A stretch of DNA of 64,000 nucleotides from Intestinimonas massiliensis (ex Afouda et al. 2020) (GTDB lineage Bacteria; Bacillota; Clostridia; Oscillospirales; Oscillospiraceae). The notes under the pieces are model-generated. The model was not told where the DNA came from and did no database searches. It saw nothing but the letters and a program-made list of their open reading frames with translations. Both the position numbers and the translations under genes were made by a program. The stretch lies in the NCBI RefSeq assembly GCF_001244995.1, contig NZ_LN869529.1, forward strand, positions 1,630,957-1,694,956, written 5' to 3'. Positions 50,582 to 63,547 of the stretch are shown one piece after another; within the stretch, counting starts at the first letter, position 1, and every line of letters starts with the position of its first letter.

Positions 50582-51772
50582 ATGCGCGTATCGCCGCCGC
50601 TTGGGAAAAGGACATGGACGGCGGAGGAAGAAAACTACCTCCGGGAGAGCTGGGGTACCGTGACGGTCGATGGAATCTGCCGCCACTTGAACCGCACAAA
50701 AAACGCTATCATGGTAAGGGTAAACCGGCTGGGGCTTCCGCCCTACCTGGAGAGTGGAGAATACATCACCCTGCACCAACTGTCACGCGCACTTGGCTTC
50801 GGGGCATCATCGGATAAGTATTTCATGAAAAGCTGGGTGGAAAACCGGGGCTTCCCCCTGCACTACAAGCGGCGGGGAGCATCGACGATCCGTGTGGTCT
50901 ACCTGGGTGAATTCTGGGCGTGGGCCGAGAAAAACCGCTCTTTCCTGGATTTCTCCAAAATGGAGCCCCTGGCACTGGGGGAGGAACCAGACTGGCTGCC
51001 GGGGCAGCGCCGAAAAGATTATGAGGCCTATGCGCTTCAGAGAAAGGACGCATGGACACCGACAGAGGACTCCCGCCTAAAAATGCTGGTCAGCCTGCAC
51101 AAGTATTCGTGGGCCGAAATTTCCGACATGATGCACCGCTCCCATGGAGCGATTTCCCGCCGTTGCCGCGACCTTGGTATCAAAGACCGGCCTGTGGCTA
51201 TGGAGTTGACCGGGAAGCGCGGGACATGGTCACCGGAGGACTTTGAGGCACTGGTTGACGGTATTCGCAATGGCGACAGCTACGCCGCCATCGGGAAGGC
51301 CGTAGGCCGGTCGGAGAAATGTGTCCGCTCCAAGGTCTACAACGACTACCTGACCGAAAACATGGACAAGGTGCGTGAAATGCTCGGCGACGGACCCTGG
51401 GGATCCGGAGCCCCGGAGATGGACGTCAAGCACGGCTTCTATATCTCGCGCACCAGACAGCAGGTCCGGCGCGACCTCTCCACGCTGGCGGCACTGCTCC
51501 GCAAGAGGATGAACGACCTCGGGTATGACCCCTACTGGCAGCGGTTTATGTGCATGAACTGGGATGACTTCGACGGATGCGCCGCCGGGTGCAAGGACTG
51601 CGATTCCTGCACAGAGTTCCGCCGCATACCCCCGCAATACTGCGCCCGCTGCGGGGCTACCTTCTATGAGCGCAAGGAAAATCGCTTCTGCTTGGCCTGC
51701 CGCACGGCCAGGAAGAAACAGGCTCAGCGCCGGTGGTGCCGCATGAACGGATATACCCGAAAGGAGGTGTGA
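50582..51772 (+). CDS. Phage DNA-binding protein with three Myb/SANT-like repeats and zinc fingers
   Basis: The 396-residue protein has three SANT/Myb-like helix-turn-helix units: 10-52 (RTWTAEEENYLRESW...NRTKNAIMVRV), 157-200 (AWTPTEDSRLKMLV...HRSHGAISRRC) and 214-257 (GTWSPEDFEALVDG...GRSEKCVRSKV). A Cys cluster CAAGCKDCDSC (333-343) and CARCGATFY...CLAC (354-373) follow, likely zinc-binding. It follows the methylase gene and may organise or regulate phage DNA. The triple repeat layout is unusual for a phage. Confidence 0.75.
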   Translation: MRVSPPLGKRTWTAEEENYLRESWGTVTVDGICRHLNRTKNAIMVRVNRLGLPPYLESGEYITLHQLSRALGFGASSDKYFMKSWVENRGFPLHYKRRGASTIRVVYLGEFWAWAEKNRSFLDFSKMEPLALGEEPDWLPGQRRKDYEAYALQRKDAWTPTEDSRLKMLVSLHKYSWAEISDMMHRSHGAISRRCRDLGIKDRPVAMELTGKRGTWSPEDFEALVDGIRNGDSYAAIGKAVGRSEKCVRSKVYNDYLTENMDKVREMLGDGPWGSGAPEMDVKHGFYISRTRQQVRRDLSTLAALLRKRMNDLGYDPYWQRFMCMNWDDFDGCAAGCKDCDSCTEFRRIPPQYCARCGATFYERKENRFCLACRTARKKQAQRRWCRMNGYTRKEV

Positions 51773-51773
51773 G

Positions 51774-51962
51774 ATGTTCTTCCTGGAGAGAAAAGAGCCG
51801 GTCGCCATGTCGAATGTCCTCGGCAACACCAGCCAGCCGGTCCATACATACCGATGGAAAGCGATATACACCTGCCCGGAGCGGTGGCCCTTGGAGGCGC
51901 TTCTCCGGCACATGGACCCCGAGACGCACCGTATCACATCAAATTCCCCGGCCGAGGGATAA
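51774..51962 (+). CDS. Small phage protein of unknown function
   Basis: This 62-residue protein (ERKEPVAMSNVLGNTSQPVH, then HTYRWKAIYTCPERWPLEAL) has an excellent site AAAGGAGGTGTGAG before its ATG, one base after the previous stop. No family is recognised. Confidence 0.6.
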   Translation: MFFLERKEPVAMSNVLGNTSQPVHTYRWKAIYTCPERWPLEALLRHMDPETHRITSNSPAEG

Positions 51963-51984
51963 GCCGGCCACGAAAGGAGCTTGT

Positions 51985-53559
51985 ATGAAAAAATCAATCA
52001 ATGACCGCTGCCCACTGCAGGTCGAGTGCGAGCGGAAAAAATGTGAGTATGTCCGAAAGGAGTTGGAGTGCCCATACTACTCAGCGAACGCCCGCAAAGG
52101 CTACTACATCGACGACCAGGAGGAGATCCGTGACCGGCGGGATCGGGAGCGGATGGACGAAGCCCTCCTTGCTTCGCTGGGCGACGATGACGATGACGAC
52201 ACCTCCGACGGCGGCCTGGTCTACATCCCCGTCGAACAACTTTATCCTCACCCCGACAACCCCCGGAAAGACCTGGGCGACCTGACCGAGCTGGCCGACA
52301 GCATCAAGGCCAACGGTGTCCTCCAGAATTTGACCGTTGTCCCCCGCACCGTGACCGGGGAAATCACGGGAGAAACCTGGCAGAAGGGCTATACCGTGGT
52401 CATCGGCCACCGCCGGCTCGCAGCCTCGAAGCTGGCCGGGCTGAAAGAGCTGCCCTGCGTCATCACCGATATGGACCTTCGGAGCCAGGTGCAGACCATG
52501 CTCATGGAGAACATTCAGCGGGCCGACCTCACCCTTTACGAGCAGGCCCAGGGCTTCCAGATGATGCTCGACCTGGGGGACAGCATTGACGAGATCGCCC
52601 GGAAGTCCGGCTTCTCCCAGACGACCGTGCGGCGCAGGGTGAAGCTACTGGAGCTCGACCAGGAGAAATTCAAGGCTTCCGTGAGTCGTGGTGCCAACCT
52701 CATGGATTACATGGAGCTGGACAAGATCGACGACCCGGAGCTGAAGAATGAGGTCCTGGAGGCCATCGGCACCAACAACTTCCGGCAGAAGCTGGCCAGC
52801 GCCATCGAGACAGAGAAAAGCCGCAAGCTCATCGCGGAGCGGGTGCAGGCCCTTTCCGCCTTTGCGACTCAGGTTGAGAAGGTGGACCACTCCACCATGC
52901 GGTATGTGCGGAATTACGGCACCTGGAACAAGAAAGACGAGGTGACGCGCCCCGATGACGCGGACACCGTAGCTTACTTCTTCTGTGTGGGAATGCACCA
53001 GGTAGACCTTTATCGCCAGATCGTTGAGGAGCCGGAGGACACAGAGGCGGCGGCCCAGGCGGAGCGAATCAAGGCAGAGCTGGAGCGCCGGCACGCAGAG
53101 CTTGAAACTATCTCCAGGGCAGCATACCAGGCCCGATACGCATTCATCAAGGACTTTTCGGCGGCGAAAAAGAACGTGGCGACTGTCTGCCGGTTTGTTG
53201 CTGGGATGCTCCTCCGGGGCCACGATGATCCCGACGACGCCATGATGTCCGAGCTCTTGGGCATTGGCATTGATACCGAGAACGATGAAATCGACATCCC
53301 GGCCTTTGATGAACGGTCGAAAGAAAGCCCGGAATACGCTCTTCTGGCTACCGCCTACGCGTCCTTTGACGACGAGAGAGTAAATTATTTCTGGTGGCGC
53401 TGGGACTCCGCGAAGCACAGCATGGCCTGCGCCTACCAGGAAAACGAAAGCCTGGACTTCCTGTATAAGATTCTCACCGAGCTCGGATATGAGATGTCCG
53501 ACGAAGAAAAAGCCCTCCAGGACGGCACCCATGAGCTGTTCCAGGAGGTGGACGGATGA
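51985..53559 (+). CDS. ParB-family protein with N-terminal Cys cluster
   Basis: In this 524-residue protein the N-terminus holds CPLQVECERKKCEYVRKELE with a fourth Cys in CPYYS, a probable zinc site. The ParB/Spo0J core covers about 75-250: IPVEQLYPHPDNPRKDLGDL, VVIGHRRLAASKLAG (box with CTP/nuclease-type Arg) and ENIQRADLTLYEQAQGF. A helix-turn-helix IARKSGFSQTTVRRRVKLLE follows. A long C-terminal helical region of about 270 residues is unlike partition ParB. It may segregate an episomal form, regulate genes, or act as a nuclease. Confidence 0.85.
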   Translation: MKKSINDRCPLQVECERKKCEYVRKELECPYYSANARKGYYIDDQEEIRDRRDRERMDEALLASLGDDDDDDTSDGGLVYIPVEQLYPHPDNPRKDLGDLTELADSIKANGVLQNLTVVPRTVTGEITGETWQKGYTVVIGHRRLAASKLAGLKELPCVITDMDLRSQVQTMLMENIQRADLTLYEQAQGFQMMLDLGDSIDEIARKSGFSQTTVRRRVKLLELDQEKFKASVSRGANLMDYMELDKIDDPELKNEVLEAIGTNNFRQKLASAIETEKSRKLIAERVQALSAFATQVEKVDHSTMRYVRNYGTWNKKDEVTRPDDADTVAYFFCVGMHQVDLYRQIVEEPEDTEAAAQAERIKAELERRHAELETISRAAYQARYAFIKDFSAAKKNVATVCRFVAGMLLRGHDDPDDAMMSELLGIGIDTENDEIDIPAFDERSKESPEYALLATAYASFDDERVNYFWWRWDSAKHSMACAYQENESLDFLYKILTELGYEMSDEEKALQDGTHELFQEVDG

Positions 53560-54002: not shown

Positions 54003-54247
54003 AGAAAAAGCGAGCGAGATCCCAGCCGGTATCGGGGCGCACCGCCCCGGCGCCGGCGCCGGCGACCGGCGGCCGCGTCCAGGTGGGCGATGTAGTCTAC
54101 CGCAAGCCCATCTCTTTTTCGGATAGCGACGCCAAGAACGCCCAGACGATGCGCGGGACGGTGGTCTGGGTACACCCGGCCGGCCGCTTCCATGTGGTCG
54201 AATTTGAGAAGGGTGTTCGGGAAAGCTTCATGGGGGTAAAAGGTTGA
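53999..54247 (+). CDS. Small basic phage protein
   Basis: The 82-residue protein has a basic N-terminus and a Pro/Ala tract (SGRTAPAPAPATGG). A small beta-rich part (VQVGDVVYRKPISFSD, then MRGTVVWVHPAGRFHVVEFE) resembles a KOW/SH3-like barrel. It overlaps both neighbours by four bases. No family assigned. Confidence 0.6.
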   Translation: MKKKRARSQPVSGRTAPAPAPATGGRVQVGDVVYRKPISFSDSDAKNAQTMRGTVVWVHPAGRFHVVEFEKGVRESFMGVKG

Positions 54248-55047
54248 ATGCTGTAATCAAATACCCTGGAGCAAAGTGGTCACTGGCCGAATGGATAATT
54301 GGACACTTTCCGCCGCACCACAGCTATTTGGAGCCCTTCTTTGGGAGCGGAGCAGTACTGTTCACAAAACAGAGGTCCAACATAGAGACGGTGAATGACC
54401 TGGATGGGAATGTAGTCAATTTATTTAACTGGATTAGAAACGACCCGGAGCGGCTGGCCCGTGCGATTTATTGGACGCCCTACGCCAGAGATGTTTACGA
54501 CCGCGCGTGGGCCGCGCAACACACAGAAACTGACCCATTTCAGCGCGCAGTAGACTTTTATGTCAGAATGATGATGGGACATGGTTTCCGCACAACCGGC
54601 GAAAAAGTGGGGTGGAAAAACGACGTGCAGGGCCGCGAGGCCGCCTACGCTGCAGGTTACTGGTGCAAAACGCCGGAGGTTGTCTATCAAGCCGCAGAGC
54701 GACTTCGGGGCGTTCAAATCGAAAACAGGCCGGCCGTAGAGCTGATACGCCGGTTCAATTTTCCAAATGTGCTGATTTACGCCGATCCTCCTTATCTACT
54801 GGAGACACGGCACGGAAAGCAATATCGGTGCGAGATGTCCAAAAAAGACCACGTTGACCTACTGGATGCTCTAAAAGCGCATCGCGGGCCGGTAATCCTC
54901 TCCGGATATGAAAGCGACCTCTACGACGATGCGCTGACAGGCTGGTACCGAGATGAAGCAACAGCCATTGCCCAGACCGCGACGAAACGAAAGGAAGTCC
55001 TGTGGATGAACTTTGAACCACAAGGAATCCAAGAAAGAATGTTTTAA
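54244..55047 (+). CDS. D12-class DNA adenine methyltransferase (Dam-like)
   Basis: The 267-residue enzyme has the motif I region KYPGAKWSLAEWIIGHFP and FFGSGAVLF, and the catalytic DPPY in IYADPPYLLETRHG (about 176-189). These are hallmarks of D12-class adenine methylases. A TTG start overlaps the previous stop by four bases. Its codon choice is clearly less GC-rich than its neighbours (many A/T third bases), pointing to recent acquisition within the phage. It probably protects phage DNA from restriction. Confidence 0.92.
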   Translation: MNAVIKYPGAKWSLAEWIIGHFPPHHSYLEPFFGSGAVLFTKQRSNIETVNDLDGNVVNLFNWIRNDPERLARAIYWTPYARDVYDRAWAAQHTETDPFQRAVDFYVRMMMGHGFRTTGEKVGWKNDVQGREAAYAAGYWCKTPEVVYQAAERLRGVQIENRPAVELIRRFNFPNVLIYADPPYLLETRHGKQYRCEMSKKDHVDLLDALKAHRGPVILSGYESDLYDDALTGWYRDEATAIAQTATKRKEVLWMNFEPQGIQERMF

Positions 55048-55502: not shown

Positions 55503-55895
55503 ATGACGCTACAAGAGTTGTCCCAGTACTATAAGTTGCGCGAGCGGCTGAAAAGGGACGAAGAAATCCTGCAATCCCTACGAGCCGCGGCTTGCCCCGG
55601 AGCGCAGAATTTGAGCGGGATGCCACACGCGCCGGGCGTTCGGGACAAGGTGGGCGACCTGGCTGTTGAGATCGCCGATATGACGGAACGAATCCGGTAT
55701 CTCAAAGAGGAGATCGACCGGGCAGAGGCGGCCGTCACAGAATTTGTGGAGAATATCGAGAACGACCAGACGCGGATGATTTTCAGGCTCCGCTTCCTCC
55801 GCTGCCTGACTTGGGGAGAGGTCGCGGCCGTCATCGGTGGGCGCAATACCGAAGATGGCGTGAAGTCAGCCTGCTACCGATACCTCTCTTCCTGA
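55503..55895 (+). CDS. ArpU/DUF1492-like late transcription regulator
   Basis: The 130-residue protein has a long coiled-coil-like first part (residues 1-85). The C-terminal sigma-region-4-like helix-turn-helix is QTRMIFRLRFLRCLTWGEVA then AVIGGRNTEDGVKSACYRYL. This matches DUF1492/ArpU phage late regulators, which switch on morphogenesis genes. GGGGGTG precedes the ATG. It is the last gene before a terminator and the cargo block. Confidence 0.83.
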   Translation: MTLQELSQYYKLRERLKRDEEILQSLRAAACPGAQNLSGMPHAPGVRDKVGDLAVEIADMTERIRYLKEEIDRAEAAVTEFVENIENDQTRMIFRLRFLRCLTWGEVAAVIGGRNTEDGVKSACYRYLSS

Positions 55896-55981: not shown

Positions 55982-56014
55982 GGCGGCCCTTCTTCGGAGG
56001 GGCCGCCATTCTTT
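55982..56014 (+). terminator. Terminator after the late-regulator gene
   Basis: An 8-bp stem GGCGGCCC / GGGCCGCC around a CTTCGG-containing loop is followed by ATTCTTTT. It separates the early operon from the symporter/PP-loop/ParB block. In 55896-56123 no other firm gene is seen; a TTG-led frame near 56027 after AAAGGAGG is uncertain. Confidence 0.8.
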
Positions 56015-56123
56015 TGGGAAAGGAGGTTGAGGCCGCCGCGTTACTCCTTGCGCGTCGGTCATGCGCCGGGCTTCGTGTTCGCCAGCACGGGCAGCGGCGA
56101 CGCCAAAAAAGGAGAAAAGCAAA

Positions 56124-57509
56124 ATGTTCGGAATCATTGTCCTGGCCGTCTATGCGGCGCTGATGATCGGCGTCACGCTGATTTTCACCCGTAGGGCGAC
56201 CAGCTCAGAGAGCTTTCATGTGGCAGACCGGCGAATCTGTGCTCCCGTCGCAGCTATGAGTATCGCTGCGACCTGGATCTGGGCGCCGTCTCTGTTCACG
56301 TCATCGGAAATGGCGTACACAAAAGGCGTTCCAGGAATGTTTTGGTTCCTGGTGCCGAATGTGCTGTGCCTCATCATCTTCATTCCCTTTGCCAAGAAGA
56401 TCCGCCGCCAATACCCGGAGGGCATCACCCTCACCGGCTACATGGCCGAGCGGTACCGCTCCCCGAGGGTAAAGGGCGTCTACTCCTTCCAGCTGGGCGC
56501 GCTGGCCGTCCTCTCGACGGCCGTGCAGCTGCTCGCCGGCGGGAAGACGCTGGCCCTCCTCACGGGCCTGCCCTTCTGGAGCATGACGCTGGCCCTGGCC
56601 GCCATCGCCTATTCCTACTCCCGCTTCTCCGGTATCAAGGCGTCGGTGGCCACGGACGTCGTCCAGCTGGGCATCATCCTCTTGGGCGGTGCGCTCCTGG
56701 TATCCCTGGGCCTCCGGCTGACCGGCGGCCTGGAGACAGTGCGGGCCGGGCTGGGCTCTGTCAGCGGGGAGTACACCTCCCTGACCTCGGCCTCCGGCGT
56801 CGAGGTGCTGCTGAGCTTCGGCCTCCCAACGGCGGTCGGCCTCATCTCTGGTCCGTTCGGCGACCAGTGCTTTTGGCAGCGGGCCTTCTCCATCCGGGAG
56901 GACCGCATCGGCCGCTCGTTCTTCGTCGCGGCGCTGCTGTTCGCCCTTGTCCCCATCGCCATGGGCACGGTAGGCTTCCTGGCCGCCGGCTCCGGCTTCC
57001 AGGCGGCAGACGCCGGCATGGTGAACTTCGAGTTTGTCATGTCGCTGCTCCCGGCCTGGGTGCTGGTGCCCTTCCTGTTCATGGTCATCTCCGGCTTGCT
57101 CTCCACGGTGGACAGCAACCTGTGCGCCGCGGCGTCCCTCACGACAGACTGGATGACCGGCGAGGGGGCCGACAACATCCGCGCCTCCCGGCGCGTCATG
57201 CTGGCCCTGCTGCTGGTGAGCATTCTGATCGCCAACATCCCGGGGCTGACCGTGACGCACCTGTTCCTGTTCTACGGCACCCTGCGGGCCTCCACGCTGC
57301 TCCCCACGGTGATGACGCTGCTGGGGAAGAAGCTCTCCGCCGGCGGCGTGTTCGCCGGCGTCCTCACCGCGCTGTGCGTCGGGCTCCCCATCTTTGCCTA
57401 CGGCAACATCGCGGGCATTCCGGCCCTCAAAACGGCCGGCAGCCTGACGACCGTGCTGTCGAGCGGCGTCGTGGCCGTCATCGCCTCCAGAAAGGCGGTG
57501 AGGACATGA
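56124..57509 (+). CDS. SSS-family sodium:solute symporter carried by the prophage
   Basis: The 461-residue carrier has about 13 hydrophobic segments. SSS features include the N-terminal FTRRATSSESFHVADRRICA loop, AATWIWAPSLFTSSEMAYTK and VISGLLSTVDSNLCAAASLT with the sodium-site Ser/Thr residues. AAAAAGGAG precedes the ATG, and the stop overlaps the next gene by four bases. Such carriers normally import amino acids, sugars or bases; they are very rare in phages. Tight coupling to PP-loop and ParB-like genes suggests a supply role for that system. Confidence 0.85.
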   Translation: MFGIIVLAVYAALMIGVTLIFTRRATSSESFHVADRRICAPVAAMSIAATWIWAPSLFTSSEMAYTKGVPGMFWFLVPNVLCLIIFIPFAKKIRRQYPEGITLTGYMAERYRSPRVKGVYSFQLGALAVLSTAVQLLAGGKTLALLTGLPFWSMTLALAAIAYSYSRFSGIKASVATDVVQLGIILLGGALLVSLGLRLTGGLETVRAGLGSVSGEYTSLTSASGVEVLLSFGLPTAVGLISGPFGDQCFWQRAFSIREDRIGRSFFVAALLFALVPIAMGTVGFLAAGSGFQAADAGMVNFEFVMSLLPAWVLVPFLFMVISGLLSTVDSNLCAAASLTTDWMTGEGADNIRASRRVMLALLLVSILIANIPGLTVTHLFLFYGTLRASTLLPTVMTLLGKKLSAGGVFAGVLTALCVGLPIFAYGNIAGIPALKTAGSLTTVLSSGVVAVIASRKAVRT

Positions 57510-58288
57510 GCCTGGGTAGGAAACAACGCATCACCAATGAAGCCTGGCTGGAGGCCGTTGCAACCGTCGAGAGCGCGGTTTCCGAGGCGGCCCTGGGCGA
57601 ACTTGTGGCCGCGACCATCGAGGACATCAAGGCCAAGACAGCGGGCAAAAAGGCGGCCTATGCCTGGAGCGGTGGTAAGGACAGTATTGTCCTTGGCAAG
57701 CTCTGCGAGGCCGCCGGCGTGGTCGACAGCATGATCGGCGTGTGCGACCTGGAGTACCCGGCCTTTGCCGCTTGGATCGAGGCCAATAAGCCGGAGGGCT
57801 GCGAGGTCATCAACACGCACCAGGGGCTCGACTGGCTGGCCAGACACCCGGAGATGCTGTTCCCGCAGAACTCGGCCGCGGCCGGCCGGTGGTTTTCCAT
57901 CGTGCAACACCGGGCCCAGCGCATCTATGCCAAGGCCCACGGCCTCGACCTCATCATCCTGGGCCGCCGCCGTGCGGACGGGAACTATGTGGGTCGCGGC
58001 ACCAACATCTACACCGACGGCAAGGGCGTCACCCGCTTCAGCCCGCTCGCGGCCTGGAGCCATGAGCACGTCCTGGCCTATATCCATTACCACCAGCTCC
58101 CGCTCCCGCCCATCTACGGGTGGAAGAACGGCTACCTCTGCGGTACGCACCCCTGGCCCGCCCGGCAGTGGACGGGCGGCACCGAAAACGGCTGGCGCGA
58201 AATCTACGACATCGACCCCTCCATCGTCATTGAGGCGGCGGAGAAGATCGAGAGCGCCCGGGCCTTCCTGAAGGGGGTGCGGGCATGA
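57506..58288 (+). CDS. PAPS-reductase-like PP-loop protein, copy 1
   Basis: The 260-residue protein of the adenine nucleotide alpha-hydrolase/PAPS-reductase fold has the PP-loop motif AYAWSGGKDSIVLGKL (SGGKDS at 55-60) and GLDLIILGRRRADGNYVGRG. A Cys is in GYLCGTHPWPARQWTGG. It lacks the usual Cys-Gly-Ile-His reductase end, so it is probably not a sulphate reductase and may adenylate or thiolate a substrate. ATGA overlaps with the symporter gene before it and the ParB-like gene after it. Confidence 0.82.
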   Translation: MSLGRKQRITNEAWLEAVATVESAVSEAALGELVAATIEDIKAKTAGKKAAYAWSGGKDSIVLGKLCEAAGVVDSMIGVCDLEYPAFAAWIEANKPEGCEVINTHQGLDWLARHPEMLFPQNSAAAGRWFSIVQHRAQRIYAKAHGLDLIILGRRRADGNYVGRGTNIYTDGKGVTRFSPLAAWSHEHVLAYIHYHQLPLPPIYGWKNGYLCGTHPWPARQWTGGTENGWREIYDIDPSIVIEAAEKIESARAFLKGVRA

Positions 58289-58893
58289 ACGTGACGAGAA
58301 AGCTCCTGTCCGAGCTCCGGCGCCCGGAGCGGAACGTCCGGATGCACACCGACAAGCAGCTGAAAGAGTTCCGGCGCTCCATTGAGATGTTCGGCCAGAT
58401 CCGCCCCATCGTGGTGGACGAGGACGGCGTCATCCTGGCTGGCAACGGTCTGTATGAAACGCTCCTCTCCATGGGCCGCACCGAGGCAGACTGCTACGTC
58501 GTGACCGGCCTGACCGAAGCCCAGAAGAAAAAGCTGATGCTGGCAGACAACCGAGTGTTCGACCTGGGCGTGGATGACCTGTCCGCGCTGGATGCTTTTG
58601 TCCTGGAGTTGAAGGACGACCTGGACATCCCCGGCTATGAGGAAGACCTGCTCCGGGCGATGGTCATGGAGGCGGACGAGGCCGCCGATACCCTCAGTGA
58701 GTACGGCACCATCGACGAGGAGCGCATCGAGGAGATCCGCGACGCCCGGGAGCGCACCGAGGCCCGGGAGGAAGCGGCCGCGAGGAACGCCGAGGAGTAT
58801 GTCCCGCCGGCGGCTGGAACACAGCCTCAGGAGGAAGGACCGGCGCGCCGGTTCATCCTCTGCCCGAAATGCGGTGAGCGGATATGGCTGTGA
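58285..58893 (+). CDS. ParB-like protein, copy 1, with C-terminal zinc-ribbon half
   Basis: In this 202-residue protein the ParB-N fold segment includes RNVRMHTDKQLKEFRRSIEM, PIVVDEDGVILAGNGLYETL and TEADCYVVTGLTEAQKKKLM. It ends CPKCGERIWL, a half zinc site. The usual ParB DNA-binding helix-turn-helix is lacking. It overlaps both the PP-loop gene before it and the second PP-loop gene after it. It is likely the partner of copy 1 PP-loop protein. Confidence 0.82.
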   Translation: MNVTRKLLSELRRPERNVRMHTDKQLKEFRRSIEMFGQIRPIVVDEDGVILAGNGLYETLLSMGRTEADCYVVTGLTEAQKKKLMLADNRVFDLGVDDLSALDAFVLELKDDLDIPGYEEDLLRAMVMEADEAADTLSEYGTIDEERIEEIRDARERTEAREEAAARNAEEYVPPAAGTQPQEEGPARRFILCPKCGERIWL

Positions 58894-60038
58894 AGCGTGT
58901 TGCGTCCAACGTGGACATTGTGACCGCCGCCCGTCAGCGCATCAAAAATGTGTTCTCCAACGGCGTCCCAGTCTATATGTCGTTCTCTGGCGGAAAGGAC
59001 AGCCTGTGCCTGGCCGACCTCACCTTGAAACTGATCCAGGCCGGGGAGATCGACCCGGCCCAGCTGACCGTCCTCTTCATCGACGAGGAGGCCATCTTCG
59101 ACTGCATCGAGGAAACGACCAAGGCCTGGCGCAAGAAGTTCCTGCTGGCCGGCGCCAAGTTCCAGTGGTGGTGCATCGAGGTCAAGCATTTCAACTGCCT
59201 CAACGAGCTCTCCAGCGACGAGACATTCGTCTGCTGGGACCGCCGCAAGCGGGATGTCTGGGTGCGGCAGCCGCCGCCCTTTGCCATCCGCAACCATCCT
59301 CTGCTCAAGCCCAGGGTGGACAACTATCAATCCTTCCTGCCCCGCGTCACCCGGGACGGCATTATGATGACCGGCGTCCGGGCGGCCGAATCCGTCCAGC
59401 GCCTCCAGTACATGGCGGCTCTGGGCGTGGGCGGTAAGGGGATCACCAACACCAACACCATCTACCCGATCTACGACTGGAAGACCACCGACGTGTGGCT
59501 CTACCTTCGCAACGAGCGGGTGGAGATCCCCAAGGTCTATCTGCAGATGTACCAGGTCGGGGTCAATCGCAACCAGCTGCGGGTTTCGCAATTCTTCTCT
59601 GTCGATACTGTCCCCGTCCTGGTACATCTTGCGGAGTATGACCCCGCTCTGATGGAGCGCGTGCTCCGCCGTGAGCCCAACGCCTACCTTGCCATGCTCT
59701 ACTGGGACAGTGAAATGTTCCACCGCACGACGCGGAAGCGCCGGGAGCTGGAGGGCAAGGACACGAAGGACTACCGCGCGCTCCTGAAAGAGATGCTGTT
59801 CGAGCGCCCCGCCGATTTCTTCAACACTCCGCACAAGCGCGAGATCGCCAAGCAGTACCGCAAGCTCTTTATCCGCATGGACGGCATGGCCCGCCCCCGG
59901 GACTACCGGAAGATGTACGAAGGGCTGGTGGCCGGCGACCCCAAGCTCCGCACCCTGCGGGCGATCTACCAGGATATTTCCTGCGCCTACGCAGCCTACG
60001 CCAAGTCCTTCCGGAAGGGAGGTGAAGCGAATGGCTGA
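58884..60038 (+). CDS. IbrA-like PAPS-reductase/PP-loop protein, copy 2 (DUF3440 type)
   Basis: The 384-residue protein has the PP-loop motif VYMSFSGGKDSLCLADL (SGGKDS at 35-40) and FIDEEAIFDCIEETTKAW. GVRAAESVQRLQYMAA, YPIYDWKTTDVWLYLR and a C-terminal DUF3440-like extension match IbrA of enteric prophages, where IbrA and IbrB together affect host gene expression. It overlaps the ParB-like gene before it by 10 bases and the one after it by 8 bases. Substrate and reaction are unknown. Confidence 0.86.
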   Translation: MAVKRVASNVDIVTAARQRIKNVFSNGVPVYMSFSGGKDSLCLADLTLKLIQAGEIDPAQLTVLFIDEEAIFDCIEETTKAWRKKFLLAGAKFQWWCIEVKHFNCLNELSSDETFVCWDRRKRDVWVRQPPPFAIRNHPLLKPRVDNYQSFLPRVTRDGIMMTGVRAAESVQRLQYMAALGVGGKGITNTNTIYPIYDWKTTDVWLYLRNERVEIPKVYLQMYQVGVNRNQLRVSQFFSVDTVPVLVHLAEYDPALMERVLRREPNAYLAMLYWDSEMFHRTTRKRRELEGKDTKDYRALLKEMLFERPADFFNTPHKREIAKQYRKLFIRMDGMARPRDYRKMYEGLVAGDPKLRTLRAIYQDISCAYAAYAKSFRKGGEANG

Positions 60039-60555
60039 TGTGGACCTGTTCGCCCCTCTGTCCTCCCTGCAGTGGGTGGACCGCGACCAGCTCAAGCCCA
60101 ACGACTACAACCCCAACAAGGTCAACCGGGAGAACTTGAAGCTGCTGGTGCAGTCCATCCTCACCAACGGCTGGACGCTGCCCATCGTGGTGCGCCCTGA
60201 CTACACCATCATCGACGGCTTCCACCGCTGGACGGTGGCCGGAGAGGAGCCCCTGCACACGAAGCTGGGCGGCAAGGTGCCCGTGGTGATCGTGCGGCAC
60301 GACGACCAGACCGAGGACATCTACGGCACCGTCACCCACAACCGCGCCCGTGGCACACACCTGCTGGAGCCTATGAAGGCCATCGTCAAGCGCCTGCTGG
60401 CTGACGGGAAAAGCGTGCAGGAAATCGGGAAGCAGCTGGGCATGAGGCCCGAGGAGGTATTCCGCCTGTCTGATTTCTCACGCGATGACTTCCTCTCGAT
60501 GATGACGAAAGGCGTACATGGGTACAGCAAAGCAGAGCTGCTGACCAAGTACTGA
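60031..60555 (+). CDS. IbrB-like ParB-family protein, copy 2
   Basis: The 174-residue protein has ParB-N features PNDYNPNKVNRENLKLLVQS, PIVVRPDYTIIDGFHRWTVA (the DGFHRW box) and TVTHNRARGTHLLEPMKAIV. A helix-turn-helix-like end VQEIGKQLGMRPEEVFRLSD follows. This is the layout of IbrB, the partner of IbrA. GGAAGGGAGG precedes the ATG at 60031. The gene completes the second PP-loop/ParB pair. Confidence 0.86.
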   Translation: MADVDLFAPLSSLQWVDRDQLKPNDYNPNKVNRENLKLLVQSILTNGWTLPIVVRPDYTIIDGFHRWTVAGEEPLHTKLGGKVPVVIVRHDDQTEDIYGTVTHNRARGTHLLEPMKAIVKRLLADGKSVQEIGKQLGMRPEEVFRLSDFSRDDFLSMMTKGVHGYSKAELLTKY

Positions 60556-60948: not shown

Positions 60949-61584
60949 ATGGCGGCAAAGAAGCAGGATGTGGTCGTAGAGGACGGAGCCGTGTACGTGC
61001 TGCGCGCCGGGACGCCTGTCTACGTCAAGACTGCCGACATCTGCTCGATGACCGGGAAAAGCAATCAGTGGATCGGACAGCTGGTAGCCCAGGGGACGCT
61101 GCATAAACGCAGCACCCCCCACGGGAGCCTGTTCGATGTCACCGAGGCTGTGCGCGCCTACTGTTCCATGCTGGAGGCCCGCGCAGGACCGGCCAAGACC
61201 GAGGAGGAGATCAAGCAGGAAATCAAGCAGGAAAAGGCGAAAGCGGCCGCTGACGTGACAATGAAGATTGCCAAGGCCAACATCGCCAAGGCCGAGGCCG
61301 ACGAGCTCCAGGGCAAAATGCACCGGAGCGAGGACGTGGCCGCGATGACTACCGACTTGATCTATGCCATTCGCGGGGCGATGATGGCCCTGCCCGGCCG
61401 CCTGGCCGTGGACGTGGCCTCGGCGAACTCCCCAGCGGAGGCCGCCGAGATTATCCGCCGCGAGGTCAACAAGGCCATGCGGGAGCTCTCCAATTACCGC
61501 TATGACCCAAAGAAATACGAGGAGCGCGTCCGGGAGCGGAGGGCCTGGGAAGCTGACAGCGGGCGTGATGCCGATGACGGATAA
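60949..61584 (+). CDS. Terminase small subunit (Nu1-like)
   Basis: The 211-residue protein begins with a winged-helix DNA-binding domain (VYVKTADICSMTGKSNQWIG, about 24-43; then LFDVTEAVRAYCS). A long charged coiled coil (about 80-125) with a tandem IKQE repeat and a C-terminal helical part follow. This is the plan of Nu1-type subunits that recognise the packaging site. GGAAAGGAG precedes the ATG. It overlaps the large terminase gene. Confidence 0.88.
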   Translation: MAAKKQDVVVEDGAVYVLRAGTPVYVKTADICSMTGKSNQWIGQLVAQGTLHKRSTPHGSLFDVTEAVRAYCSMLEARAGPAKTEEEIKQEIKQEKAKAAADVTMKIAKANIAKAEADELQGKMHRSEDVAAMTTDLIYAIRGAMMALPGRLAVDVASANSPAEAAEIIRREVNKAMRELSNYRYDPKKYEERVRERRAWEADSGRDADDG

Positions 61585-63547
61585 GGAAACGCGCCGGCTC
61601 ATAGAGGAGAAAGAGGCCCGCGAGCGGGTAAAGAGGCTGAATGCCGTCATCGGGAAAGTCTTGGCCGGCATGAAGCCGCCGGACGACCTGACCGTGACGG
61701 AATGGGCGGAGAAAAACCGCCGCCTGTCCACCGAGGCCAGCGCCGAGCCCGGCCCCTGGCGTACCGACCGCACCCCTTACCTCCGGGAGCCGATGGACGC
61801 CTTTACCGACCCCCGGGTGCACCGCATCGTCATGGTGGCGGCGTCCCAGGTGGGAAAGTCGGAGTTCCTCAACAACACCATCGGCTATATCATCGACGAG
61901 GACCCCGGCTCCATCCTGTTCGTCCACCCCACGACCATTGACGCCAAGGAGTACTCCAAGCTCCGTATCGCTCCGATGATTCGGGACTGCCCCACCCTCA
62001 AAAAGAAGGTGGCGGACCCCAAGAGCCGCGACAGTGGAAACACCATCCTGCAAAAGACATACCCCGGCGGCATCCTGACGATGTGCGGCTCCACAGAGGC
62101 CCACGCCCTGGCGTCCAAGCCCATCCGCTACATCATGGGGGACGAGCGCGACCGCTGGGCGACCTCCGCCGGCAACGAGGGCGACCCCTGGGAGCTGGCC
62201 CAGGCCCGACAGACCACGTTCTACAACGCCAAGGCGCTGGAGGTCAGCACCCCCACCGTCAAGAACGCCAGCGCAATCGAGGCGTCCTACGCCGAGGGCA
62301 CAATGGAGCGGTGGAAAAGCAAATGCCCCCACTGCGGCGAGTACCACGAGATCAACTTCGAGGACATCCGCTATGAGCACGAGGAGGGCGTGGTAGCCGG
62401 CCGCAAGACCTTCAAGGTGCTGCACGTCTGGTATGTCTGCCCCGGCTGCGGAAGCATATCCGACGAGACGACCATGAAGCACCAGCCCGCGCGCTGGGAG
62501 GCGGACAACCCCGACGCATACGCCCAGGGCGTCCGCTCTTTCTGGCTGAACGCCTTTGTTAGCCAGTGGGCTTCCTGGAGCTCCATCGTACTCAAGTATC
62601 TCAAGGCTATCGGCAACACCAGGAAGCTCCAGGTGGTCTACAACACCTGCTTCGGCCTGCTGTGGGAAGACCGCGGCGACCTGGAGGACGAGGACAGCCT
62701 CATGGCCCGCCGGGAGGATTACGGTACCCGGCCGGACGGCTCCCCCGTGGAGCTGCCGGAGGGGGTGCTGGTACTCACCGCCGGCGTGGACACCCAGGAC
62801 GACCGCATGGAGTATGAGGTCGTCGGGCACGGCCACTTCGGGGAAACCTGGGGAATTGAAAAGGGCATCGTCATGGGCAGGCCGGATGACCCGGACACCT
62901 GGGCCAAGCTGGACGAGATGGTGTTCAACCGAGTATTCCGCTTCGAGGACGGCCTGGGCCTCCGAAGCTCTATGACCTTCGTGGACGAGGGCGGCCATTT
63001 CACCCAAGACGTCCGCCTCCAATGCCGGGCGCGCATCTCCCGCAAGGTGTTCTGTATCAAGGGTATGCCCGGGGCGGATAAGCCCTACACCTCTCCGCCG
63101 AAGAAGATGAAGATCGTGGTCAATCAAATCGCCATCGGCACCTGCTGGCAGTACCAGCTCGGCGTCGACTCCGGCAAGCAGATCATCATGGACAACCTCA
63201 AGGTGCAGAAGCCGGGCTCGAAGTACTGCCACTTCCCGAGGCGGGACGACTACGGCCCCGGCTACTTTACCGGCCTGCTCTCTGAGCACCTGGTATATGA
63301 CCCGGCCAAGAAGCAGCCCTGGGTGTGGGAGAAGATACCCGGCCACGAGCGCAACGAGGCCCTGGACTGCCGCAACTACGCTCTGGCGGCCTTCAAATGC
63401 ACGCCGGCCAACCTTGACGAGATAGACAGGCGGCTAAAGGCGGCCCGGGGGAAAGCCCCCTCTACGGGCGTTGCAACAGCCCCGCCGCCCCCCAAAAAGC
63501 AGACCAAGCGCGGCTCCGCGCTGAAGAAATACTACGACGAATGGTAG
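61568..63547 (+). CDS. Terminase large subunit (GpA family)
   Basis: The 659-residue packaging motor/nuclease is of the lambda GpA family. The ATPase has VMVAASQVGKSEFLNNTIGY (Walker A-like, about residues 89-108) and the Walker B region RYIMGDERDRW. A zinc-binding CPHCGEYHEINFED...CPGCGS lies at about 258-300. The nuclease domain has GVDTQDDRMEYEVVG and a late DCRNYALAAF. Start 61568 or 61574; both overlap the small subunit. It ends in TAG, showing that TAG is a real stop in this phage. Confidence 0.95.
   Translation: MPMTDKETRRLIEEKEARERVKRLNAVIGKVLAGMKPPDDLTVTEWAEKNRRLSTEASAEPGPWRTDRTPYLREPMDAFTDPRVHRIVMVAASQVGKSEFLNNTIGYIIDEDPGSILFVHPTTIDAKEYSKLRIAPMIRDCPTLKKKVADPKSRDSGNTILQKTYPGGILTMCGSTEAHALASKPIRYIMGDERDRWATSAGNEGDPWELAQARQTTFYNAKALEVSTPTVKNASAIEASYAEGTMERWKSKCPHCGEYHEINFEDIRYEHEEGVVAGRKTFKVLHVWYVCPGCGSISDETTMKHQPARWEADNPDAYAQGVRSFWLNAFVSQWASWSSIVLKYLKAIGNTRKLQVVYNTCFGLLWEDRGDLEDEDSLMARREDYGTRPDGSPVELPEGVLVLTAGVDTQDDRMEYEVVGHGHFGETWGIEKGIVMGRPDDPDTWAKLDEMVFNRVFRFEDGLGLRSSMTFVDEGGHFTQDVRLQCRARISRKVFCIKGMPGADKPYTSPPKKMKIVVNQIAIGTCWQYQLGVDSGKQIIMDNLKVQKPGSKYCHFPRRDDYGPGYFTGLLSEHLVYDPAKKQPWVWEKIPGHERNEALDCRNYALAAFKCTPANLDEIDRRLKAARGKAPSTGVATAPPPPKKQTKRGSALKKYYDEW

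Follow-up and report, generated by a model that had tools for sequence, protein, structure and literature searches.

Importer-coupled IbrA/IbrB cassettes in phages of gut Clostridia: a possible import-and-modify system

Adjacent genes for the PP-loop protein IbrA and the ParB-fold protein IbrB are known from E. coli prophages and from Streptococcus, Mycobacterium and Flavobacterium phages, where they occur alone or with a further ParB-like protein (PB1 below) and/or a DNA methyltransferase; in the open-access full texts that we searched, they are present as annotations only. Here we analyse a 64,000-nucleotide stretch of the Intestinimonas massiliensis contig NZ_LN869529.1 (hereafter the window), part of a 3.1-Mb genome, which carries a prophage with a five-gene cassette encoding a sodium:solute symporter family importer (SSS), a PP-loop protein (PP1), a ParB-like protein (PB1), and homologues of IbrA (PP2) and IbrB (PB2), the last two likewise side by side. 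Compared with the known pairs, the cassette has in addition a dedicated importer, which can be exchanged, and in many cases another PP-loop enzyme. This importer-coupled form, with its exchangeable importers, appears to be new, IbrA/IbrB themselves being already known and unexplained; our search of open-access full texts gave no description of it, although most subscription papers were not searchable.

The core set, which in the window cassette consists of PB1, PP2 and PB2, has a nested distribution. IbrA and IbrB stand alone in Streptococcus and E. coli phages, and ParB, IbrA and IbrB lie beside the terminase in mycobacteriophage Phlyer. Arthrobacter phage Salgado, Bacillus phage 031MP004 and Rhizobium phage RHph_I4 have a set that includes a DNA methyltransferase, whereas gut Clostridia phages and contigs of Treponema metagenome-assembled genomes (MAGs) have the core with an importer and, optionally, PP1. 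Like the window cassette, gp35–gp38 of Faecalibacterium phage FP_Taranis (NC_047914) encode an importer, a ParB-like protein, IbrA and IbrB before the terminase, but the importer is of another family, T2 (gp35, annotated as “transporter membrane protein”), rather than SSS, and PP1 is absent; the FP_Taranis paper does not mention the cassette genes. A Clostridium clostridioforme prophage has PHROGs 424 and 2302, the families of PP1 and PP2, at orf40 and orf42, labelled “phosphoadenosine phosphosulfate reductase, host metabolism” (PMC11318856). In phage vB_RanS_PJN03 (L359:4890-7065) there is no importer, and the core genes are arranged as ParB, ParB, IbrA. The annotation of IbrB in mycobacteriophage Gaia (gp104, L456:4114-5013) is that of a multidomain protein, ectoine synthase/ParB, and such a fusion may be a clue to the chemistry.

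In lysidine synthesis, the PP-loop enzyme TilS adenylates its target, which a small amino compound then attacks; this resembles the chemistry that we propose below for the cassette; however, TilS acts on tRNA, has no ParB partners, and shows only remote fold similarity to the cassette enzymes. The Dnd/Ssp systems (DndC with the ParB-like DndB) and the Dpd systems (with the ParB-like DpdB) are similar in that a PP-loop and/or ParB-fold protein acts on DNA, but the cassette has neither the Fe-S cysteines nor DndA, DndD, DndE or TGT. In logic, the nearest analogue with a proven function is the phage enzyme CmoY, which joins glycine to 5-carboxymethylcytosine in DNA and whose gene clusters often hold ParBc proteins; the CmoA/CmoX/CmoY system resembles the cassette, as we propose to read it, in having an ATP-dependent, AMP-forming PP-loop-class ligase that places a small amine on a DNA base (PMC12783734). 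It differs in that PP1 and PP2 are not asparagine-synthetase homologues, the cassette lacks CmoA and CmoX, and CmoY uses cellular glycine without an importer.

The module is conserved, its gene order is invariant, and its importers are interchangeable. Scanning viral contigs with SSS and PP1 gave 130 loci, 94 of which have SSS, PP1, PB1, PP2 and PB2 in the same order and on the same strand; of the remainder, 15 lack only PP1, 10 lack SSS, and some lie at contig ends. Where SSS is missing, another membrane protein, T2, fills the same slot and touches the next gene. T2 is a 331-residue family with no Pfam or NCBIfam name, and is possibly a distant relative of SSS, judging from a profile alignment (hhalign 53%, E 1.4e-4) and a common SIAATW motif. 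In two loci (L108 and L194), the importer in this slot is replaced by an ATP-binding cassette (ABC) permease and an NMT1/SsuA-type binding protein, for which the best models are the SsuA family (3e-23 and 2e-33) and a SaoP/TauC-like permease. Further scans seeded with PB2, PP1 and T2, together with a genome scan, brought the collection to 412 PP2 loci, forming 204 clusters at 95% PP2 identity: 86 with SSS and PP1, 24 with SSS and no PP1, 32 with T2 and PP1, 42 with T2 and no PP1, and two with the ABC importer, the rest being mostly contig-end cuts or importer-free relatives. PP2 is always present; PP1, often present, is an optional member.

We note that the choice of seed biases these counts, and that the PB2-seeded scan is the fair test of importer linkage. 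In that scan an importer lies directly upstream in 50 of the 51 untruncated clusters (25 SSS, 25 T2), and in the sole cluster without one, PP1 is truncated. The core is complete in 76 of 80 SSS-seeded viral loci (three contig-end cuts and one deletion account for the others) and in 74 of 80 T2-seeded loci. The sequence-only reading had proposed that the genes form a joint system served by its own carrier, and had suggested co-occurrence in other phages as a check. Gene content and order recur at about 200 distinct phage loci, and another importer occupies the slot when the symporter is absent, both of which bear out this central idea. Importer coupling is strongly supported, and the importer is very probably a functional part of the system. 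The further suggestion that symporters are very rare in phages holds for isolate phage genomes (one of 50,697 records) but not for gut virus contigs, where a single scan found 98 relatives. Of 391 genomes of the class, none has a match to T2 and two have a match to PP1, a pattern more in keeping with genes of phages than with housekeeping genes of the host.

Some loci depart from the usual arrangement. An extra open reading frame (ORF), by sequence a putative homing-type endonuclease, lies between PP2 and PB2 in two loci (L028:11197-11622 and L108:10537-11280). In another (L001:9275-10431) a deletion joins PP1 to PB2, with PB1 and PP2 gone; either the assembly is at fault here or the module may be broken. 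In Eubacterium plexicaudatum (L327:8064-16082) several kilobases inserted within PP1 interrupt the cassette. Truncated symporters without other cassette genes (L349:7995-9005 and L356:7995-9026) are apparently decayed copies. Three type-P5 twister ribozymes lie a few kilobases 5' of one ABC-type cassette (L194:908-2367).

All five cassette genes are under purifying selection, with dN/dS of 0.03–0.29 (0.09–0.29 for SSS) when the window is compared with the cassettes of An100, Yanshouia, Agathobaculum and Anaerotruncus. The closest named relative is that of Flavonifractor sp. An100, whose symporter is 97% identical, and the identical symporter (100%) is found on a 53.6-kb virus contig in IMG/VR (L073). 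Between the window and Agathobaculum the symporter is 61% identical and the other genes 78–89%, which looks like exchange of the importer inside the cassette. Of 140 clusters, 108 have a gene resembling the terminase large subunit (TerL) no more than 4 kb downstream, and these genes are of several types. Module distances are nearly equal within and between terminase types, and modules that have diverged by only 5–10% are found beside different TerL types, from which it follows that the cassette moves between phages while keeping its slot.

The symporter belongs to the SSS family (Pfam SSF, 73.5 bits against a gathering threshold of 22.8), and scores below the cut-offs of the NCBIfam substrate-specific models (PanF 60/328, PutP 39/516 and ActP 31/750 bits, score/cut-off). 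Its nearest solved relatives are the DUR3 urea and SLC5A7 choline transporters, which are not decisive for the substrate. A genome-wide scan found relatives of 43–52% identity outside the cassette at 11 distinct cellular loci, two of them poorly resolved, and an adenylating enzyme adjoins the symporter relative in 8 to 10 of these. Four loci (L339, L344, L347 and L357) combine it with an asparagine synthase (Asn_synthase 1e-69 to 1e-73) and a second conserved gene. In three others (L341, L350 and L351) it adjoins a divergent PP-loop protein with an SGGIDS motif, and L352 has a related ORF; L345 has no adenylating neighbour, and L353 is cut. This independent recurrence beside adenylating enzymes supports an importer that feeds an ATP-dependent ligation, and the ligated compound is possibly amino-acid-like. 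In an alphaproteobacterial MAG (L355:7959-11016) the relative is followed by a divergent prolyl-tRNA-synthetase-like protein (proS 2e-26), hinting at an amino-acid-like substrate. The second conserved gene in the asparagine synthase loci, which come from unrelated bacteria, encodes an uncharacterised protein of about 330 residues with an N-terminal CxxC.

Both PP-loop proteins contain SGGKDS, as the sequence-only reading had stated, and the S-x-G-K-D motif is kept across 155 PP1 and 236 PP2 sequences. The conserved residues S55-xGKDS-60 and S35-xGKD-39, and the Foldseek matches of PP1 to PP-loop enzymes, place them in the PP-loop (HUP) superfamily. The AlphaFold2 model of PP1 (pLDDT 95) has as its best folds phosphoadenosine phosphosulfate (PAPS) reductase, CysD, TtuA, GMP synthetase and FAD synthase. 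PP2 has the conserved motifs SGGKDS, REPNAY and GDPKxR, and its relatives are annotated as IbrA; because this IbrA-type protein (PHROG 2302) is directly followed by an IbrB-type ParB protein (PHROG 2159), PP2–PB2 belongs to the IbrA/IbrB family. In the same sequence sets neither protein has a conserved catalytic cysteine or the terminal CGxH of PAPS reductase: no cysteine is invariant in PP1, C212 of its “CGTH” being replaced in about 19% of sequences, and only C97 is invariant in PP2. The lack of a reductase-type cysteine end had been pointed out for the first copy only; it is true of PP1, but it is equally true of PP2.

The lack of an invariant cysteine set removes CysH, DndC, TtcA and similar cysteine-dependent chemistries. 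The curated model for CysH PAPS/adenosine phosphosulfate (APS) reductase gives 26/154 bits. DndC/SspD proteins are defined by three Fe-S cysteines plus a cysteine dyad (PMC10853773); the cassette enzymes lack the needed cysteines, and the DndC model gives 20/290 bits. Sulfate/PAPS reduction was rejected because of the absent catalytic cysteines and low model scores, and DndC-like phosphorothioation because of the absent cysteines, the low model score and the lack of dnd partners, so that both are unlikely activities of PP1 and PP2. The simplest reading of these sequences is an adenylating, ligase-like chemistry. Of the two chemistries originally suggested, adenylation therefore fits the PP-loop enzymes, and thiolation does not, given that there is no conserved cysteine set.

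PB1 has no Pfam match, and its assignment as ParB-like comes from PHROG 620 (9e-45). It shares homology with the ParB domain that forms the N-terminal part of DNA methyltransferases in phages (PHROG 498 9e-28, PADLOC MTase_II 1e-15), and C193 and C196 of its C-terminal CxxC are invariant. The AlphaFold2 model of PB2 matches ParB/Noc/KorB NTPase structures and, weakly, sulfiredoxin (E 0.03). Neither is recognised as a ParB partition protein (TIGR00180: PB2 30/58 bits, PB1 no match). The ParB fold binds several nucleoside triphosphates (NTPs) and includes small-molecule kinases (PMC12704722); a serine kinase function for PB2 is disfavoured by its score against the SerK/SbnI free serine kinase model (14/380 bits), and the fold search prefers ParB/Noc/KorB. 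It had been thought that the second PP-loop/ParB pair was a duplicate of the first. Profile comparison rules out a tandem duplication: PP1 and PP2 have only the PP-loop fold in common (hhalign 92%, about 22% identity), and PB1 and PB2 cannot be aligned over their whole length. The two pairs are different families.

In the window, the predicted ORFs and their overlaps of 4–10 bases were confirmed: the five genes span 56124-60555 on the forward strand, with successive overlaps of 4, 4, 10 and 8 bases (Table 1). An in-frame ATG lies further upstream of SSS, at 56061, but homologues begin at 56124. The prophage is identified by a phage integrase (38120-39316), a Sak4-like annealing protein and a DnaA/DnaD-like replication protein, and the cassette sits between a late transcription regulator-like gene and the terminase genes. 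Across loci, 60 of 172 clusters have a terminator-like hairpin between −280 and +80 relative to the importer ORF, compared with 6 of 516 random segments from the same loci. We read it as marking the start of a late operon; it could also be a leader regulator. A riboswitch that would name the substrate was rejected, because no Rfam family matched before the cassette in the window, or at the gathering score in eight related loci. The same prophage also encodes a D12-class (Dam-like) DNA adenine methyltransferase about 1 kb 5' of the cassette (54244-55047) and, besides PB1 and PB2, a 608-residue ParB-like protein (PHROG 6218; 51733-53559).

Table 1. Positions of the cassette genes and flanking features in the window, and of the ABC-type binding protein genes in their own loci.
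Feature	Position	Strand	Evidence or remark
Late transcription regulator-like gene	55503..55895	+	PHROG 36, E 3.9e-13; directly 5' of cassette
Terminator-like hairpin, T-rich tail	55982..56016	+	11-bp stem; between regulator gene and cassette
SSS, sodium:solute symporter family importer, 461 aa	56124..57509	+	Pfam SSF 2e-20; PHROG 20720 9e-175
PP1, PP-loop (HUP) protein, PHROG 424, 260 aa, optional member	57506..58288	+	Pfam PAPS_reduct 2.5e-9
PB1, ParB-like, C-terminal CxxCG-IWL	58285..58893	+	PHROG 620 9e-45
PP2, IbrA-like PP-loop, 384 aa, core member	58884..60038	+	PHROG 2302 5e-88; Pfam PAPS_reduct 9e-13
PB2, IbrB-like ParB-fold, DGFHRW motif, core member	60031..60555	+	Pfam ParB_N 1e-7; PHROG 2159 1e-70
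Terminase small subunit, marks genomic slot	60949..61584	+	PHROG 57, 4e-26
Terminase large subunit (GpA type)	61502..63547	+	Pfam GpA_ATPase 2e-79
ABC-type binding protein genes	L108:7022-7993; L194:4788-5843		

We propose that this is a phage-borne import-and-modify cassette that most likely gives phage DNA a modified base, a proposal that, resting on analogy, has in our view about an even chance of being right. The dedicated importer, in the window a Na+/solute symporter, would bring a small polar molecule, acting as a small nucleophile, into the infected or lysogenic cell. By analogy with CmoY and TilS, PP2/IbrA, with PP1 where present, would use ATP to adenylate a target group, which the imported molecule or a derivative would attack; this would be ligase chemistry of the kind found in TilS, asparagine synthetase and the phage amide ligase CmoY, rather than redox or Fe-S sulfur chemistry. 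The ParB-fold proteins may bind NTP and nucleic acid and either choose where the reaction takes place or act as its gate, roles that have been proposed for DpdB and DndB. The modified base would be made before packaging, and could protect phage DNA from host nucleases or alter late transcription. We infer the direction of import for the non-ABC importers, the substrate, the adenylated target, the DNA acceptor and the benefit to the phage. DNA is favoured over RNA because of the relatives of PB1, the DNA methyltransferase neighbours of the core, and the slot before the packaging genes; given this context, it is reasonable to take DNA as the target in preference to RNA or protein. Several observations weigh against the proposal. 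Many phages have IbrA/IbrB without any importer, which implies that in some lineages the core reaction can do without one; the importer-coupled cassette contains no methyltransferase; neither PP1 nor PP2 has a Pfam Asn_synthase match of the asparagine-synthetase (CmoY) type; the three importer types point to no single ligand; and annotations assign IbrA/IbrB a role in gene expression.

The same import-and-activate logic could instead serve an RNA (tRNA or phage mRNA) or protein acceptor, for example in escaping tRNA cleavage or remodelling translation. PP-loop enzymes mostly act on tRNA (TilS, TtcA, TtuA), TtuA and TilS are among the fold matches, and the best PDB match of the PP2 profile is a U34-tRNA thiolase (E 0.003). 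Yet the cassette has two ParB-fold proteins, one of them homologous to a DNA methyltransferase ParB domain, its slot adjoins the terminase, and the core lies beside DNA methyltransferases in other phages; we consider such an acceptor unlikely. The position between a late regulator and late genes, the many records that annotate IbrA/IbrB as co-activators of prophage gene expression, and the ability of ParB-fold proteins to be NTP-dependent regulators (PMC12704722) would be consistent with a switch of gene expression, or with lysogenic conversion, the importer then providing the lysogen with a signal molecule or nutrient. This explanation, which we think improbable, does not account for the one or two PP-loop enzymes, whose ATP sites are intact; moreover, the position suggests late lytic rather than lysogenic expression, and changes in expression could themselves result from DNA modification.

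Superinfection exclusion or defence, with the PP-loop and ParB proteins sensing or marking invading DNA and the membrane protein as effector, is quite improbable. PP2 is remotely similar to BrxP and DndC (PADLOC 4e-12 and 1e-7) and prophage cassettes often carry defence, but an ABC permease with its binding protein would not replace a membrane-damage effector, the cassette has no nuclease, and no PADLOC model matches the symporter. The label “PAPS reductase / cysH, host metabolism” would make these sulfur-assimilation auxiliary metabolic genes, as would the Pfam and PHROG labels, the published prophage annotation (PMC11318856) and the SsuA/TauC-like ABC importers of two variants; this is very doubtful in view of the cysteine and CysH results above, the lack of ATP sulfurylase and APS kinase in the cassette, and the ParB proteins, which it leaves unexplained. 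Chance insertion of a host symporter beside an IbrA/IbrB locus, for which only the rarity in isolate genomes speaks, is refuted by the recurrent co-occurrence, and its probability is negligible given also the cluster counts, the dN/dS values and the completeness of the core in SSS- and T2-seeded loci.

IbrA/IbrB-type genes are present in at least 200 sequenced phage records, where they are routinely labelled “PAPS reductase, host metabolism” or “co-activator”. The occurrence of different importers in one slot suggests that the enzymes consume the imported molecule, and since the two ABC-type variants include a soluble binding protein, the ligand should be directly identifiable. The cassette also argues against a role in sulfur metabolism for many viral genes called as auxiliary metabolic “cysH”. 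More tentatively, and with somewhat less than even confidence, we suggest a transporter-fed hypermodification in gut Clostridia phages, in which an IbrA-type enzyme and two ParB-fold proteins attach to phage DNA an environmental molecule captured by an exchangeable importer; this would constitute a new class of DNA base, with the importer determining its chemistry, and would explain the IbrA/IbrB pairs. If the acceptor is indeed DNA, we have found no earlier case of a modification pathway in phages that is equipped with a nutrient importer of its own.

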